In this document: in pieces, positions 19,276 through 23,227 of the stretch
How positions within the stretch are numbered: the first letter of the stretch is position 1
How the letters are laid out: each line of letters starts with the position of its first letter
Assembly: GCF_001984175.1 (NCBI RefSeq)
Contig: NZ_MTQP01000062.1
Coordinates: forward strand, 1 to 64,000
Reading direction: 5' to 3'
From: Saccharothrix sp. ALI-22-I
GTDB taxonomy: Bacteria > Actinomycetota > Actinomycetes > Mycobacteriales > Pseudonocardiaceae
Length of the DNA: 64,000 nucleotides
Notes under the pieces: generated by a model
Databases searched by the model: none
What the model was told of the DNA's origin: nothing
Seen by the model: only the letters and a program-made list of their open reading frames with translations
Translations under genes and position numbers: made by a program

Positions 19276-19455
19276 ATGACTACGACGCTCACCCGCCCCG
19301 CGTTGACCGCTGCCGACCGCTGCGACCGCTGCGGGGCTGCTGCCCAGGTTCGCGCCGTGCTCCCCTCGGGGGGAGAGCTGTTGTTCTGCGGGCACCACGC
19401 CCGCGAGCACAGCACCAAGCTGCGTGAGCTCGCTGCTGAATTGCAGCAGGGCTGA
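19276..19455 (+). CDS. DUF7455 small zinc-ribbon protein
   Basis: A 59-residue protein with CDRCGAAAQ near residue 15-20 and LLFCGHHAREH near 42-50. A CxxC plus CxxH set suits a single zinc ion. Homologues of this size commonly sit just downstream of the principal sigma factor gene in actinobacteria and are named DUF7455. The start ATG 19276 follows GGAGGGAG. It is a single-gene unit with its own terminator. Function unknown; binding to the transcription machinery is a guess from context only. Confidence 0.88.
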   Translation: MTTTLTRPALTAADRCDRCGAAAQVRAVLPSGGELLFCGHHAREHSTKLRELAAELQQG

Positions 19456-19496: not shown

Positions 19497-19536
19497 GGGG
19501 CGGGGATCCGAGAGGATCCCCGCCCCCCTCCTTTTC
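19497..19536 (+). terminator. Intrinsic terminator after the DUF7455 gene
   Basis: A perfect 13-bp stem (GGGGCGGGGATCC / GGATCCCCGCCCC) with loop GAGA, followed by CCTCCTTTT. It separates this gene from the NLR module downstream. Confidence 0.9.
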
Positions 19537-19626
19537 GATGGGCTGTTTGGGTGTATGCGGGCGTATTGCCCGTATCAACTGGCGGGGGTCCGGCGATACT
19601 GCCGGTGACAATCCTGCTGGGAGTTG

Positions 19627-19989
19627 ATGCTGGTGATCGAGTCGGTGGATCTCGTGGTGGCGGCATTGGCCGCAGGTGCGACGGCGGGGATGACCGAGAC
19701 GGCTTCCACTGCCGTGAAGGACGCCTACCAGGGCTTGAAGTCGCTGACGAGCCGGGCATTGCGCCGGGGTGGGAGCGACGACGAGCCGACAGATCCCGAG
19801 GAGTTGAAGGCGGCTTTGACGGCCGCCGACGCCGGTTCGGACCCGGAGTTGGTGGCCGCCGCACGCCGGGTCCTGGAGCTGACCGACCCGGAAGGTGCGA
19901 GCGCCGGCAAGTACCGCGTCAACGTGCGCGACAGTCAGGGCGTGCAGATCGGCGACGGCAACACCATGACGCTGAACTTCGGCAAGTAG
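19627..19989 (+). CDS. Predicted Bell-domain effector with a C-terminal RHIM-like amyloid motif
   Basis: A 120-residue protein made of two parts. Residues 1-47 are an alanine-rich helical segment (SVDLVVAALAAGATAGM, then AVKDAYQGLKSL) of the kind described as the Bell domain, a bacterial counterpart of fungal HeLo/HET-S killing domains. Residues 48-95 are acidic and helical. The last 25 residues are a beta-type tail centred on GVQIGDGNT (105-113), whose VQIG core is the RHIM/BASS3 amyloid signature. The next gene starts seven bases later with the matching motif GAQVGNHNT. Expected role: a membrane-targeting death effector switched on when the NLR's amyloid seed templates this tail. ATG 19627 is chosen; GTG 19633 has better spacing to GGGAG. 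Assignment is by recalled family pattern; killing activity is inference. Confidence 0.75.
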   Translation: MLVIESVDLVVAALAAGATAGMTETASTAVKDAYQGLKSLTSRALRRGGSDDEPTDPEELKAALTAADAGSDPELVAAARRVLELTDPEGASAGKYRVNVRDSQGVQIGDGNTMTLNFGK

Positions 19990-19996
19990 CTCCCGC

Positions 19997-22168
19997 GTGG
20001 AAGTCCACCACAACCTCGGCGCGCAGGTCGGAAACCACAACACGCAGCACATCAACCTGCCACCGTCCCCACCGGTGGTGTGGCCGGTTCGGGTCGGCGT
20101 TCTGCCACCGGTCGCGGACCGGTACCAGCACCGCGAGGCCGAGACCCAGCTTGCGGAAGCGTCCGCGGTCGTGCTGTCTGGTTTGGGCGGGGTCGGCAAG
20201 TCCCAGTTGGCAGCACGTCACGCGCAGGCCGTGTGGCGGGACGAGTCGGTCGACCTGGTGGTCTGGATTGCCGCCGCGACACGGGCCGCAATAGTCAGCG
20301 GCTATGCCGATGCCGCCAGTCGGGTGCTGCGCGATGTCGACCCCGGTATCGGGCGAAGAGCTCCGGAGGACGCGGCGACTGCTCTCCTGACCTGGCTGAG
20401 TTCCACCAGCAGGCGGTGGCTGATCGTCCTGGACGACTTGCAGGACCCTGTTGACCTGCGCGGTATGTGGCCGCAGAACCCGTCGGGCCGCGTTGTGGTG
20501 ACGACCCGACGCCGTGACGCCGTGTTGGCGCGTGGGGACCGCCGGGTGATCGAGGTCGGCGTGTTCACCGAGGCGGAGTCACTGGCCTACCTGATCTCGA
20601 AGCTTCCCAGTCACGATGCCGAACACCTTCGGGTGCTGGCCGAGGACTTGGGACACCTGCCGCTGGCCTTGGCTCAAGCTGCGGCGTTCATCGCTGACAA
20701 GCCGCTGCTCACCGTCGCCGCCTACCGCGACCGGTTGACGGACCGTCGACGGACCCTGTCCCAGGTGATGCCGGAGGAGGCCGAACTACCCGACGAGCAC
20801 CAGGCCACCATCGCGGCGACCTGGTCACTGTCGATCGAACGAGCCGACGCGCTTCGCCCAGAGGGCCTTGCCCGACCGCTGCTGGAAATCATCAGCCTGC
20901 TCGACCCTGCGGGAGTCCCCGTCTCCGTGCTCACCAGTGCCGTAGTTCTAGCGCACCTCGAGGTGGACGCCGACGCCGTCGGTGACGCGCTGGGATGCCT
21001 GCACCGCCTCAGCCTCGTCACCCTCGACCCCGCTCAGCCCGAACGGGCCGTGCAGGCGCACGCGCTGCTGCAACGCGCCGTTCGCGACACCATTGAGCCG
21101 GAGCGGCGCACTCACCTGGCGCACATCGCGGCGGACGCGCTCCTGCTCGTCTGGCCGCCCTTCGAGACCAACAGCTCGCTGGCCCGAGCGCTCCGGTCCT
21201 CAGCCGCCGTCCTCCACACCGGCACGGCACCCGCGCTCTGGGAGCCGCAAGGGCACGCCGTCCTCTTCCACGCGGGAAAGTCCATGGGCAAGGCGGGACT
21301 GCTGGCCGACGCGATCGACTACTTCCGCGACCTGGGGCGACAAGCAGAGCACCACCTGGGGCCTGATCACCGCGACAGCCTCCACGCTCGCCACGAAGTC
21401 GCGTTCTGGGGCGGGCGGGCAGGGCACCACGCCGAAGCCGTCGCGGAGTACGAGCGTTTGGTCGAGGACTGCGCGCGGCTCCTGGGTCGCGACCACCGGG
21501 ACACCCTGACCATCCGGAACAACCTGGCCGCCCGACGAGCCGAGGCAGGCGACCGCACGGGCGCGATCACGGAGTTCGAACGGTTGCTCGCCGACCGACT
21601 CCAGGTCTTGGGCCCCGACCACCCGGAGACCCTCGCCGCACGCCTCAACCTCGCCGGCTGGCGGGCCGAGGCAGGCGACCGCACGGCGATCGCGGAGTTC
21701 GAACAGGTGCTCGCCGACCACCTCCGGACGGTCGGACCAGACCACCCGCAGACCTTTGACGTCCGCCACAACCTCGCCGGCTGGCGTGGGAGAGCGGGCG
21801 ATCACGCCAAGGCCGCCGCCGAGTTCGGACAACTGCTGGCCGACCGCCGTCGTGTCCTGGGCCCCGACCACCCTGACACCCTGATCACCCGCTACAACCT
21901 GGCTTGCTGGCGCGCGGAACTCGGTGCGGTCTCAGCAGCGATCACCGAGCTCCGGGCGGTGCTCGCCGACCAGCTCCGGGTGCTCGGGCCTGACCACCCG
22001 CAGGTCTCCGTCATCCTCGCCGGCATCGCGAGCTGGGAGGCCCGTGCTTCGTCAGACCTCGCCGAGGACGGGTTCGAAGGCGAGTTCGGCGGCGCCGATG
22101 AGCTTGGCGTCGCGACCCAGGGGGGACGAGATGATGCGGGTGCCGCCGACGGCGCGGGACACCAGTGA
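19997..22168 (+). CDS. NLR-like NB-ARC/TPR protein with an N-terminal amyloid signalling motif
   Basis: A 723-residue STAND ATPase. Residues 8-16 are GAQVGNHNT, the partner of the tail of the preceding gene. The NB-ARC part has a P-loop GLGGVGKSQ (62-70), Walker B LIVLDD (142-147), sensor VVVTTRRR (166-173) and GHLPLALAQ (219-227). A winged-helix region follows, with AHALLQRAVRD in place of the MHD motif. From about 450 there are five to six TPR-like repeats of 42 residues, each ending LGPDHP(E/Q/D)T; one is 41 long. There is no BTAD or SARP DNA-binding domain, so it is not an AfsR-type activator. The last 39 residues are read antisense through the 3' end of the ROK gene, implying its native end was lost. 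Expected role: sensing a trigger through the TPRs, oligomerising and seeding the Bell effector. Confidence 0.85.
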   Translation: MEVHHNLGAQVGNHNTQHINLPPSPPVVWPVRVGVLPPVADRYQHREAETQLAEASAVVLSGLGGVGKSQLAARHAQAVWRDESVDLVVWIAAATRAAIVSGYADAASRVLRDVDPGIGRRAPEDAATALLTWLSSTSRRWLIVLDDLQDPVDLRGMWPQNPSGRVVVTTRRRDAVLARGDRRVIEVGVFTEAESLAYLISKLPSHDAEHLRVLAEDLGHLPLALAQAAAFIADKPLLTVAAYRDRLTDRRRTLSQVMPEEAELPDEHQATIAATWSLSIERADALRPEGLARPLLEIISLLDPAGVPVSVLTSAVVLAHLEVDADAVGDALGCLHRLSLVTLDPAQPERAVQAHALLQRAVRDTIEPERRTHLAHIAADALLLVWPPFETNSSLARALRSSAAVLHTGTAPALWEPQGHAVLFHAGKSMGKAGLLADAIDYFRDLGRQAEHHLGPDHRDSLHARHEVAFWGGRAGHHAEAVAEYERLVEDCARLLGRDHRDTLTIRNNLAARRAEAGDRTGAITEFERLLADRLQVLGPDHPETLAARLNLAGWRAEAGDRTAIAEFEQVLADHLRTVGPDHPQTFDVRHNLAGWRGRAGDHAKAAAEFGQLLADRRRVLGPDHPDTLITRYNLACWRAELGAVSAAITELRAVLADQLRVLGPDHPQVSVILAGIASWEARASSDLAEDGFEGEFGGADELGVATQGGRDDAGAADGAGHQ

Positions 22169-23227
22169 GCGCTTCTGCACGATGCGCCGCAGCTCGTCGA
22201 CCATGGACTCCGGCAGTGCGGTGAACAGGTCCCCCAGTACCACCAGCTCAGGCCCGAGCATGTTGACGACCGTCACCAGGCCCATGGCCAGCCACTCGGT
22301 GAACTCCCCCAGCCGGTGCGAGACGCTGTCCGGCGATCCCGCCGCCAGCGAGCGCAGCTCCGCCACCACCGTGCCGCGTGGCGAGCCCTCGGGGATGGCC
22401 AGGGCGCGGCACAGGGCGGCCTCCCCCACCTCGGTCTCCCAGCAGCCCTGGCAGCCGCAGTAGCAGCGCCGGCCGCCGGGGCGCACGACCATGTGGCCGA
22501 GTTCGCCCACGTACCCACCCGTGCCGCGCAGCGGTTGGCCGCTGGAGATCACGCCGCCGCCGATGCCGACGTCAGCGGAGATGTAGACCATGTCGGACGA
22601 GTCGCGGGCCGCGCCGCGCACGTGTTCGGCGAGTGCCCCCAGTTCGGCGTCGTTGCCGACCTGGACGGGCACCTTCAGCACCGACGACAGGCGTTCGCCC
22701 AGCGCCACGTCGGTCCAGTGCAGGTTGGGCGCCTCGTGCACCAGGCCATCGGCCCGCCGCACCACGCCCGGCACCGACACCCCGACACCGACCGGCTGCA
22801 CGTCGAGTTCGTCGGCGAGCAGTTTCGCCGAGTCGGCGACGTGGGTGATGACCTCGCCGGGGTCGCGGGAGCGGTGGTGCAGGTTCCACGAGTCCCGGCC
22901 GAGGATGTCGCCGCCGAGGCCGACCATGGCCATCGCCACCTGCTCCACGCGGATGTCGATGGCCATCACCACGGCGGCGTGCGGCTGCGGGAGCACGAGC
23001 AGGGACGGGCGGCCGGCGCCGGAGCGCTGCGCCGGCACGCGTTCGGCCACCACCCCGGACTCGGCCAGGCCGTCCACCAGGGCTTTGATCGTGCTGCGGT
23101 TGAGGCCCAGCTCAGCCGCCAGCGACGCCCTGGTGGACGGCCCGTCCACGTGCAGCCGGCGCAGCAGCGCCGTGCGGTTGTGCCTGCGGACCTCGTCGGG
23201 TCGGGCTCCCGCGGTCGGTGTGCTCAC
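22052..23227 (-). CDS. ROK-family transcriptional repressor
   Basis: A 391-residue sugar-responsive repressor. Residues 15-75 are a winged helix-turn-helix (TRASLAAELGLNRSTIKALV). The rest is a ROK sugar-kinase fold with the zinc signature ELGHMVVRPGGRRCYCGCQG, so it binds sugar but probably does not phosphorylate it. It is the last gene of the sugar ABC operon: its GTG comes two bases after the permease stop region. It most likely represses that operon through the palindrome at 26732-26746. XylR-type repressors of xylose uptake have the same organisation. Its 3' end is overlapped for 117 bases by the convergent NLR gene. Confidence 0.92.
   Translation of the reverse strand: MSTPTAGARPDEVRRHNRTALLRRLHVDGPSTRASLAAELGLNRSTIKALVDGLAESGVVAERVPAQRSGAGRPSLLVLPQPHAAVVMAIDIRVEQVAMAMVGLGGDILGRDSWNLHHRSRDPGEVITHVADSAKLLADELDVQPVGVGVSVPGVVRRADGLVHEAPNLHWTDVALGERLSSVLKVPVQVGNDAELGALAEHVRGAARDSSDMVYISADVGIGGGVISSGQPLRGTGGYVGELGHMVVRPGGRRCYCGCQGCWETEVGEAALCRALAIPEGSPRGTVVAELRSLAAGSPDSVSHRLGEFTEWLAMGLVTVVNMLGPELVVLGDLFTALPESMVDELRRIVQKRSLVSRAVGGTRIISSPLGRDAKLIGAAELAFEPVLGEV

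Follow-up and report, generated by a model that had tools for sequence, protein, structure and literature searches.

A 64,000-nucleotide stretch of the genome of Saccharothrix sp. ALI-22-I (contig NZ_MTQP01000062.1, positions 1 to 64,000; hereafter the window) carries two adjacent genes that very probably form an immune or cell-death module of the bacterial amyloid signalling system (BASS) type, RHIM-like class (BASS3), in which a Bell-like effector is paired with an NLR-type receptor. The genes, their order, the motif common to both products, the conservation of the pair, a natural effector-receptor fusion and a natural loss of the effector are directly observed, by scoring proteins and six-frame open reading frames (ORFs) against Pfam, NCBIfam and PADLOC models and by comparison with related loci.

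An effector tail and a receptor N-terminus share a RHIM-like motif

The effector gene (19627..19989, plus strand) is an ORF for 120 residues whose C-terminal sequence, VNVRDSQGVQIGDGNTMTLNFGK, holds GVQIGDGNT at residues 105-113, within a RHIM-like motif that spans residues 98-118 (VNVRDSQGVQIGDGNTMTLNF; 19918..19980, plus strand). The receptor gene (19997..22168, plus strand, GTG start) lies on the same strand, 7 bases past the effector stop, and encodes 723 residues; its N-terminal sequence, VEVHHNLGAQVGNHNTQHINL, holds GAQVGNHNT at residues 8-16, within a RHIM-like motif of residues 3-21 (VHHNLGAQVGNHNTQHINL; 20003..20059, plus strand), and is followed by an NB-ARC domain (residues 54-235, P-loop GGVGKS; 20156..20701, plus strand; Pfam 35.1 bits, cut-off 23.5) and then by a TPR array (about residues 422-679; 21260..22033, plus strand; Pfam TPR_12 at 85.1 bits, with matches to TPR_10, TPR_6 and TPR_NPHP3, some of the array's matches falling below cut-off). 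Coordinates and scores bear out an earlier, sequence-only reading of this DNA in its description of the second gene as starting 7 bases on, with GAQVGNHNT near the N-terminus of an NB-ARC/TPR protein. Its description of a 120-residue protein ending in GVQIGDGNT stands for the length and the motif, but the motif is not at the very end, as MTLNFGK comes after it.

The effector tail is recognised by the Pfam RHIM model at residues 98-115 (25.7 bits, cut-off 20, E 7.8e-6), and the same model matches 7 of 9 aligned effectors (E ≤ 1), that of the window among them. Of the 57 candidates scored over the whole 10.3 Mb genome, 2 exceed the RHIM cut-off, namely this tail and that of a second Bell-like protein on another contig; in 14 control genomes none does. 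Because the receptor motif is too divergent for the Pfam model, we trained a profile of 19 positions on the tails of 30 effectors encoded at other loci. The window pair and the four orthologues at its site were excluded; three same-genus tails were kept, one of them from C60 in the window's own genome. Among the window's 904 six-frame stop-to-stop stretches of at least 30 residues, this tail profile ranked the effector tail first (39.7 bits, independent E-value (i-E) 1.2e-11) and the receptor N-terminus second (13.4 bits, i-E 0.0025), the third stretch scoring 3.4 bits. When the profile was applied to the six frames upstream of the 64 NB-ARC loci listed for the same genome (a lower bound, 150 of 266 candidates having been scored, with some upstream stretches reaching contig ends), the motif appeared (E < 1) at 2 loci, each with a Bell-like gene next to the receptor; the match of the C60 effector itself is by construction, because its tail is in the profile. 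Many of the other NB-ARC proteins of the genome resemble transcriptional regulators, as judged by eye and with some N-termini read in the wrong frame. The effector motif has 11 of 21 letters, counted by eye, in common with a Frankia BASS3 peptide reported to form amyloid (PMC8086366), and a Protein Data Bank sequence search with the effector profile returned RIPK1 or RIPK3 chains aligned at the motif in 5 of 17 rows, at sub-threshold E-values of 1.2-2.6. We regard the observation of a shared RHIM-like motif in an adjacent gene pair as confirmed.

The remainder of the effector is predicted to be helical. An AlphaFold2 model assigned with DSSP has four helices (residues 6-21, 28-47, 57-66 and 73-86); in ten-residue blocks, the predicted local distance difference test score (pLDDT) is 65-84 over residues 1-90, and it is under 50 over residues 89-118. 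The first helix (residues 6-21; 19642..19689, plus strand) is hydrophobic, with a Kyte-Doolittle mean of 1.8 over residues 1-19, and its L14, G17 and A18 are invariant in alignments A1-A3. With four predicted helices of which the first is hydrophobic, the effector N-terminus appears Bell-like in architecture.

Comparison with known amyloid-signalling systems

RHIM-type motifs trigger necroptosis in human cells, and Saccharothrix is a filamentous soil bacterium. In the BASS3 Bell/NLR signalosomes of actinomycetes, as presented in PMC7889193, PMC8086366 and PMC9815663, the motif is located at the C-terminus of the Bell protein and at the N-terminus of the NLR. The window pair resembles these systems in its adjacent genes, its GVQ[VI]G core, its small helical protein with a hydrophobic helix and its actinomycete host, and there is good ground to describe it as a fresh example of this already known kind. 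It differs in that the effector, with the motif numbered G1 V2 Q3 V4 G5 D6 x7 N8 T9 x10 x11 x12, has Met instead of Gln at position 10 and Leu instead of Asn at position 12 (NTMTLNF). Experiments on relatives are reported in two of these papers: amyloid-like aggregates arose from the Frankia BASS3 peptide (PMC8086366), and S. atratus BASS3 forms foci in Podospora that are abolished by Q113P/Q120P (PMC9815663). The two S. atratus glutamines probably correspond to motif positions 3 and 10, both pairs being seven residues apart, and by that mapping the window receptor has Gln at position 10 and the window effector Met.

With the mammalian RIPK1/RIPK3 necrosome the pair shares the G-[IV]-Q-[IV]-G core and an effector above the Pfam RHIM cut-off, but its motif is terminal, whereas that of the RIPK proteins is central, and neither protein has a kinase, death, TIR-adaptor or Z-nucleic-acid domain among its Pfam matches (E ≤ 10). 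It is also like the fungal PP-motif HELLP/NLR and HET-S/NWD2 systems, in which, according to PMC7885112 and PMC4344463, a neighbouring NLR and a HeLo-type effector have an amyloid motif in common. As for the two effector domains themselves, PMC7889193 states that Bell and HeLo have no detectable sequence homology, and PMC9815663 calls Bell a bacterial homologue of HeLo.

By analogy with these systems, the NB-ARC/TPR protein would act as the sensor. Upon a trigger the receptor would oligomerise and gather several N-terminal motifs into a cross-beta seed, which would then template the motif of the same class at the C-terminus of the Bell-like protein; the helical bundle with its hydrophobic first helix, thereby freed or clustered, would attack the cell's own membrane and kill the cell. 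Such amyloid templating and killing may bring an anti-phage benefit.

Distribution of the module and history of its site

Effector matches were obtained in 9 of 25 genomes of the same genus, 42 of 297 of the family, 5 of 396 of the phylum, 10 of 394 of the class and 25 of 394 of another family in the same class, counts that were made with differing models and thresholds, of which the first four include the window genome, and in which some matches are partial or to the motif alone. Saccharothrix sp. NRRL B-16348 is the nearest named relative with a record of the pair, and the cyanobacterium Sphaerospermopsis has a distant effector match on a plasmid. At the site of the window pair, the 25 same-genus genomes comprise 5 with the pair, 1 with the receptor alone (G004), 1 with a remnant (G005), 17 that are empty and 1 left undecided (no ROK gene in the stretch). 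The four orthologous pairs found there beside that of the window have the same arrangement. Empty sites have 89-560 bases between the two flanking genes, and they may represent either losses or the ancestral state; in G005, where the ROK protein has 99% identity to the window's, the remnant consists of an incomplete effector and a fragment from the receptor end. Among the five orthologues the pairwise ratio of nonsynonymous to synonymous substitution rates (dN/dS) is 0.13-0.44 for the effector; for the receptor it is 0.35-0.41 in comparisons with the G004 orphan (values that span the time before the loss) and 0.35-0.52 otherwise.

The window's genome has a second Bell/NLR pair (L038, 5160-7891, on C60), whose effector is 51% identical to that of the window; its NB-ARC receptor differs strongly from the window receptor (30% identity over 298 residues) but carries a motif of the same class. 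Elsewhere, the partners of Bell-like genes that bear matching N-terminal motifs are NB-ARC proteins of differing types, DUF4062-NB-ARC, nSTAND1, NACHT, NPHP3_N and Ig-like (FixG_C) proteins and proteins that, by eye, seem to be membrane-anchored; DUF4062 is reported in PMC13174449 to be a family of TIR-like NADases involved in defence against phages. In G006 (L066) a single frame joins a Bell-like domain to an NB-ARC protein (44.7 bits), with the motif eroded to GVQVRDHN, an erosion that would be expected if the task of the motif is to link two separate proteins.

Other motif classes were encountered on the way. At least 9 of 29 further NLR homologue loci have a QAG-type N-terminal motif instead; L125, L126, L136-L138, L146 and L148 as well as L161, L189 and L190 of the window's own genome are receptors, from the same NB-ARC family or from others, with such a [VF]QAG motif (for example VVQAGRDSTVTVHHG), which we take to be possibly another BASS class. 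No Bell-like gene was seen just upstream of the same-genus QAG-type receptors, and no Bell-like match at E 0.001 was obtained in G018, G020, G021, G023 and G024, which are some of the genomes with these receptors. The Bell-like proteins of L073 and L085 have non-RHIM tails and neighbours with the same odd motif (SAVGPSANITNINF with SATGPNSVVININ, and ALAGRDITGGVQQT with AVAGGNIYGGVHQT), possibly representing further motif classes, and in L078 (181-1833) a frame of 432 residues directly upstream of a Bell-like gene contains a row of several RHIM-like motifs.

Partners agree in motif sub-type at position 12

Motif position 12 divides the pairs into two sub-types, and effector and receptor belong to the same one in 35 of the 35 tabulated pairs (14 hydrophobic-hydrophobic and 21 Asn-Asn). 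The window pair, NTMTLNF with NTQHINL, exemplifies the hydrophobic type, and NTQTNTF with NVQHNTY the other; G014 holds one module of each. Once six near-duplicates had been removed, 10 hydrophobic and 19 Asn pairs remained (Fisher p 5e-8, relatedness ignored). Pairs were selected by eye, on the core motif and not on position 12, from 72 locus entries that include 4 apparent re-fetched copies (L084/L219, L050/L213, L231/L251, L226/L252). We kept, with caveats, L050 and L074, in which a contig end truncates the partner, L083, in which the partner motif is 854 bases off, and the divergent L064; we left out loci without a tail motif or without a partner motif in about 1.5 kb, the G006 fusion, the non-canonical L073, L078 and L085, and L036. 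The last of these, in G019, is a mismatch, an Asn-type effector that divergently faces a hydrophobic-type receptor with its own decayed Bell gene, and counting it would give 35 of 36; its exclusion was a matter of judgement, L064, also divergent, having been kept and agreeing. At L036/L058 of G019, the Bell gene by the receptor is decayed and an intact one, of the other sub-type, lies on the opposite strand, which may record an effector replacement.

Both partners may also depart jointly from the canonical core, as in L033 (GVL/GVL), L052 (GIL/GLL), L243 (AIV/AIV) and L245 (AIV/AIV). The motif similarity of true partners was reached in 0 of 20,000 re-pairings, also when these were made within sub-type (relatedness ignored), and within sub-type, tail residues 9-14 add no significant matching (p 0.12), whereas the core and pre-core do (p 0.0001-0.001). 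Phylogenetic control of the sub-type association is weak. The effector tree (103 columns) is poorly resolved, with 4 of 32 inner branches starred and 7 and 7 trait changes on the best tree, and the sign test has no power because just one independent pair falls on starred branches. The receptor tree, built from the 16 of 28 partners with a blastp match to the window receptor at E 1e-8 and carrying a long-branch warning for L067, gives 3 changes and nests the Asn-type L033 and L034 among hydrophobic-type receptors (supports 86/94, 92/96 and 99/97). The sequences point to partner matching at position 12 as an association. We put forward only tentatively, and at a strength that falls somewhat short of probable, that BASS3 comprises at least two matched sub-channels, in which position 12, together with joint changes at position 3, sets the seeding partner without cross-firing. 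In the literature searched we did not find a published statement of a sub-division at position 12; the founding description of BASS, reportedly that of Dyrka et al. (2020, J Mol Biol), may contain one.

Alternative explanations

The shared motif might be a non-amyloid docking peptide, acting by ordinary beta-strand or helical pairing, with regulation and not death as the outcome. None of the computed evidence presented here demonstrates amyloid, and the partners in L064, L068 and L082 carry the same motif without a Pfam NTPase match, so that it may be a general tether. However, the effector tail is recognised by the RHIM profile, and the Frankia peptide whose letters it partly shares was stained by Congo red and gave cross-beta infrared bands, according to PMC8086366; we consider a docking peptide unlikely. 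We attach about the same low probability to a decaying module, a former death system that is now dispensable and under loss in the genus. Dispensability is indicated by its lack at the site in 17 of 25 genomes, and the G005 remnant, in a genome so close to that of the window at the ROK gene, and the one effector loss fit such decay; both window ORFs are open, however, dN/dS stays at 0.13-0.52 among intact copies, and patchy loss is usual for defence genes.

Less credible still, and in our view very improbable, is that the receptor belongs to an FxSxx-COOH peptide system and that the small upstream protein is incidental. This is what the NCBIfam model NF040586 (FxSxx_TPR) would imply with a score of 308.8 against a cut-off of 300, but the margin is slight and the best-matching stretch covers receptor residues 49-383, the motif-sharing pair occurs at this site in 5 genomes and at other places in further ones, and both genes have pairwise dN/dS values well below 1. 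The NCBI model name of the receptor (FxSxx-COOH system TPR protein) is probably misleading here. An FxSxx-COOH system would be expected to have FxSxx peptide and radical SAM genes nearby; the four flanking genes scanned were those for the sigma factor, the PAP2-like protein, DUF7455 and ROK.

The assignment to BASS3 itself has to be held against several observations that weigh against it. On the receptor side, the Pfam RHIM model gives no match to the motif alone, and the match to the tail profile is just under the HMMER inclusion line (whole-sequence E 0.011). By motif similarity the window effector's own receptor ranks 14th of 29, and we therefore read the matching as one by class and not by individual pair. 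The effector model is of moderate confidence (mean pLDDT 67.1), and the structures that it matches are helical bundles of a generic kind; the Pfam matches listed for effectors include no Bell entry, and PADLOC gave no match on the window effector or on 13 effectors. In the G006 fusion, the linker contains, after the eroded motif, AVVQAGVVNGGISVHHG, a stretch similar to the QAG-type motif of other receptors, and the fused receptor may therefore derive from another motif class. The module is missing at most same-genus copies of the site, as counted above, and in G004 the leader is kept up to a CGATACT box and followed directly by the receptor, its motif intact, with no adjacent effector. Homologous NLRs without an adjacent motif partner were what the sequence-only reading had named as evidence against itself; this one genome has such a receptor, and it apparently arose by secondary deletion of the effector. 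The RHIM-like BASS layout proposed in that reading is otherwise upheld by the RHIM match, the matching motifs in orthologous pairs, the rarity of the motif among NB-ARC loci (2 of 64) and the natural effector-receptor fusion.

Flanks and leader of the module

The left boundary of the site, outside the module, is a DUF7455 gene (19276..19455, plus strand; Pfam 86.8 bits) that is present in 25 of 25 same-genus genomes. It is separated from the module by its strong intrinsic terminator, a stem-loop (19497..19526, plus strand) with a 13-pair stem and a T-rich tail that is identical across 7 aligned sequences save for one extra base in G004. The CGATACT box (19594..19600, plus strand), which contains a -10-like GATACT and of which CGATAC is invariant in 7 aligned leaders and the final T present in 6 of 7, is possibly the module's own promoter, a weak reading because a consensus scan of the module leader gave no sigma-70 site. 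Beyond DUF7455 lie a PAP2-like gene (27.0 bits, just below the cut-off of 27.2) and then the gene for a sigma-70 factor that has regions 1.2 to 4; the placement of the module beside the housekeeping sigma factor thus holds as nearness but not as adjacency, with the PAP2-like and DUF7455 genes intervening. On the right the site is bounded by a convergent ROK family gene (22052..23227, minus strand; Pfam ROK 171.3 bits), and the C-terminal tail of the receptor, its final 38 residues (686-723; 22052..22168, plus strand), overprints this gene in antisense at its 3' end. At 10 of the 17 empty sites, the receptor-tail stretch has a match within the ROK gene.

Implications

To our knowledge, how several amyloid-signalling pathways in one cytoplasm avoid cross-activation is an open question. 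If the sub-type code proposed above is true, several RHIM-like death pathways could operate in parallel within a cell without triggering one another. G004 would be a natural test of this code, as it has an orphan hydrophobic-type receptor and the only effector found elsewhere in its genome is of the Asn type. The locus and its relatives make up a small testable set, with matched and mismatched sub-types, one receptor family that contains both, an orphan receptor and a covalent fusion, and it is the sub-type matching, together with the natural series of loss and fusion, that we consider worth following.

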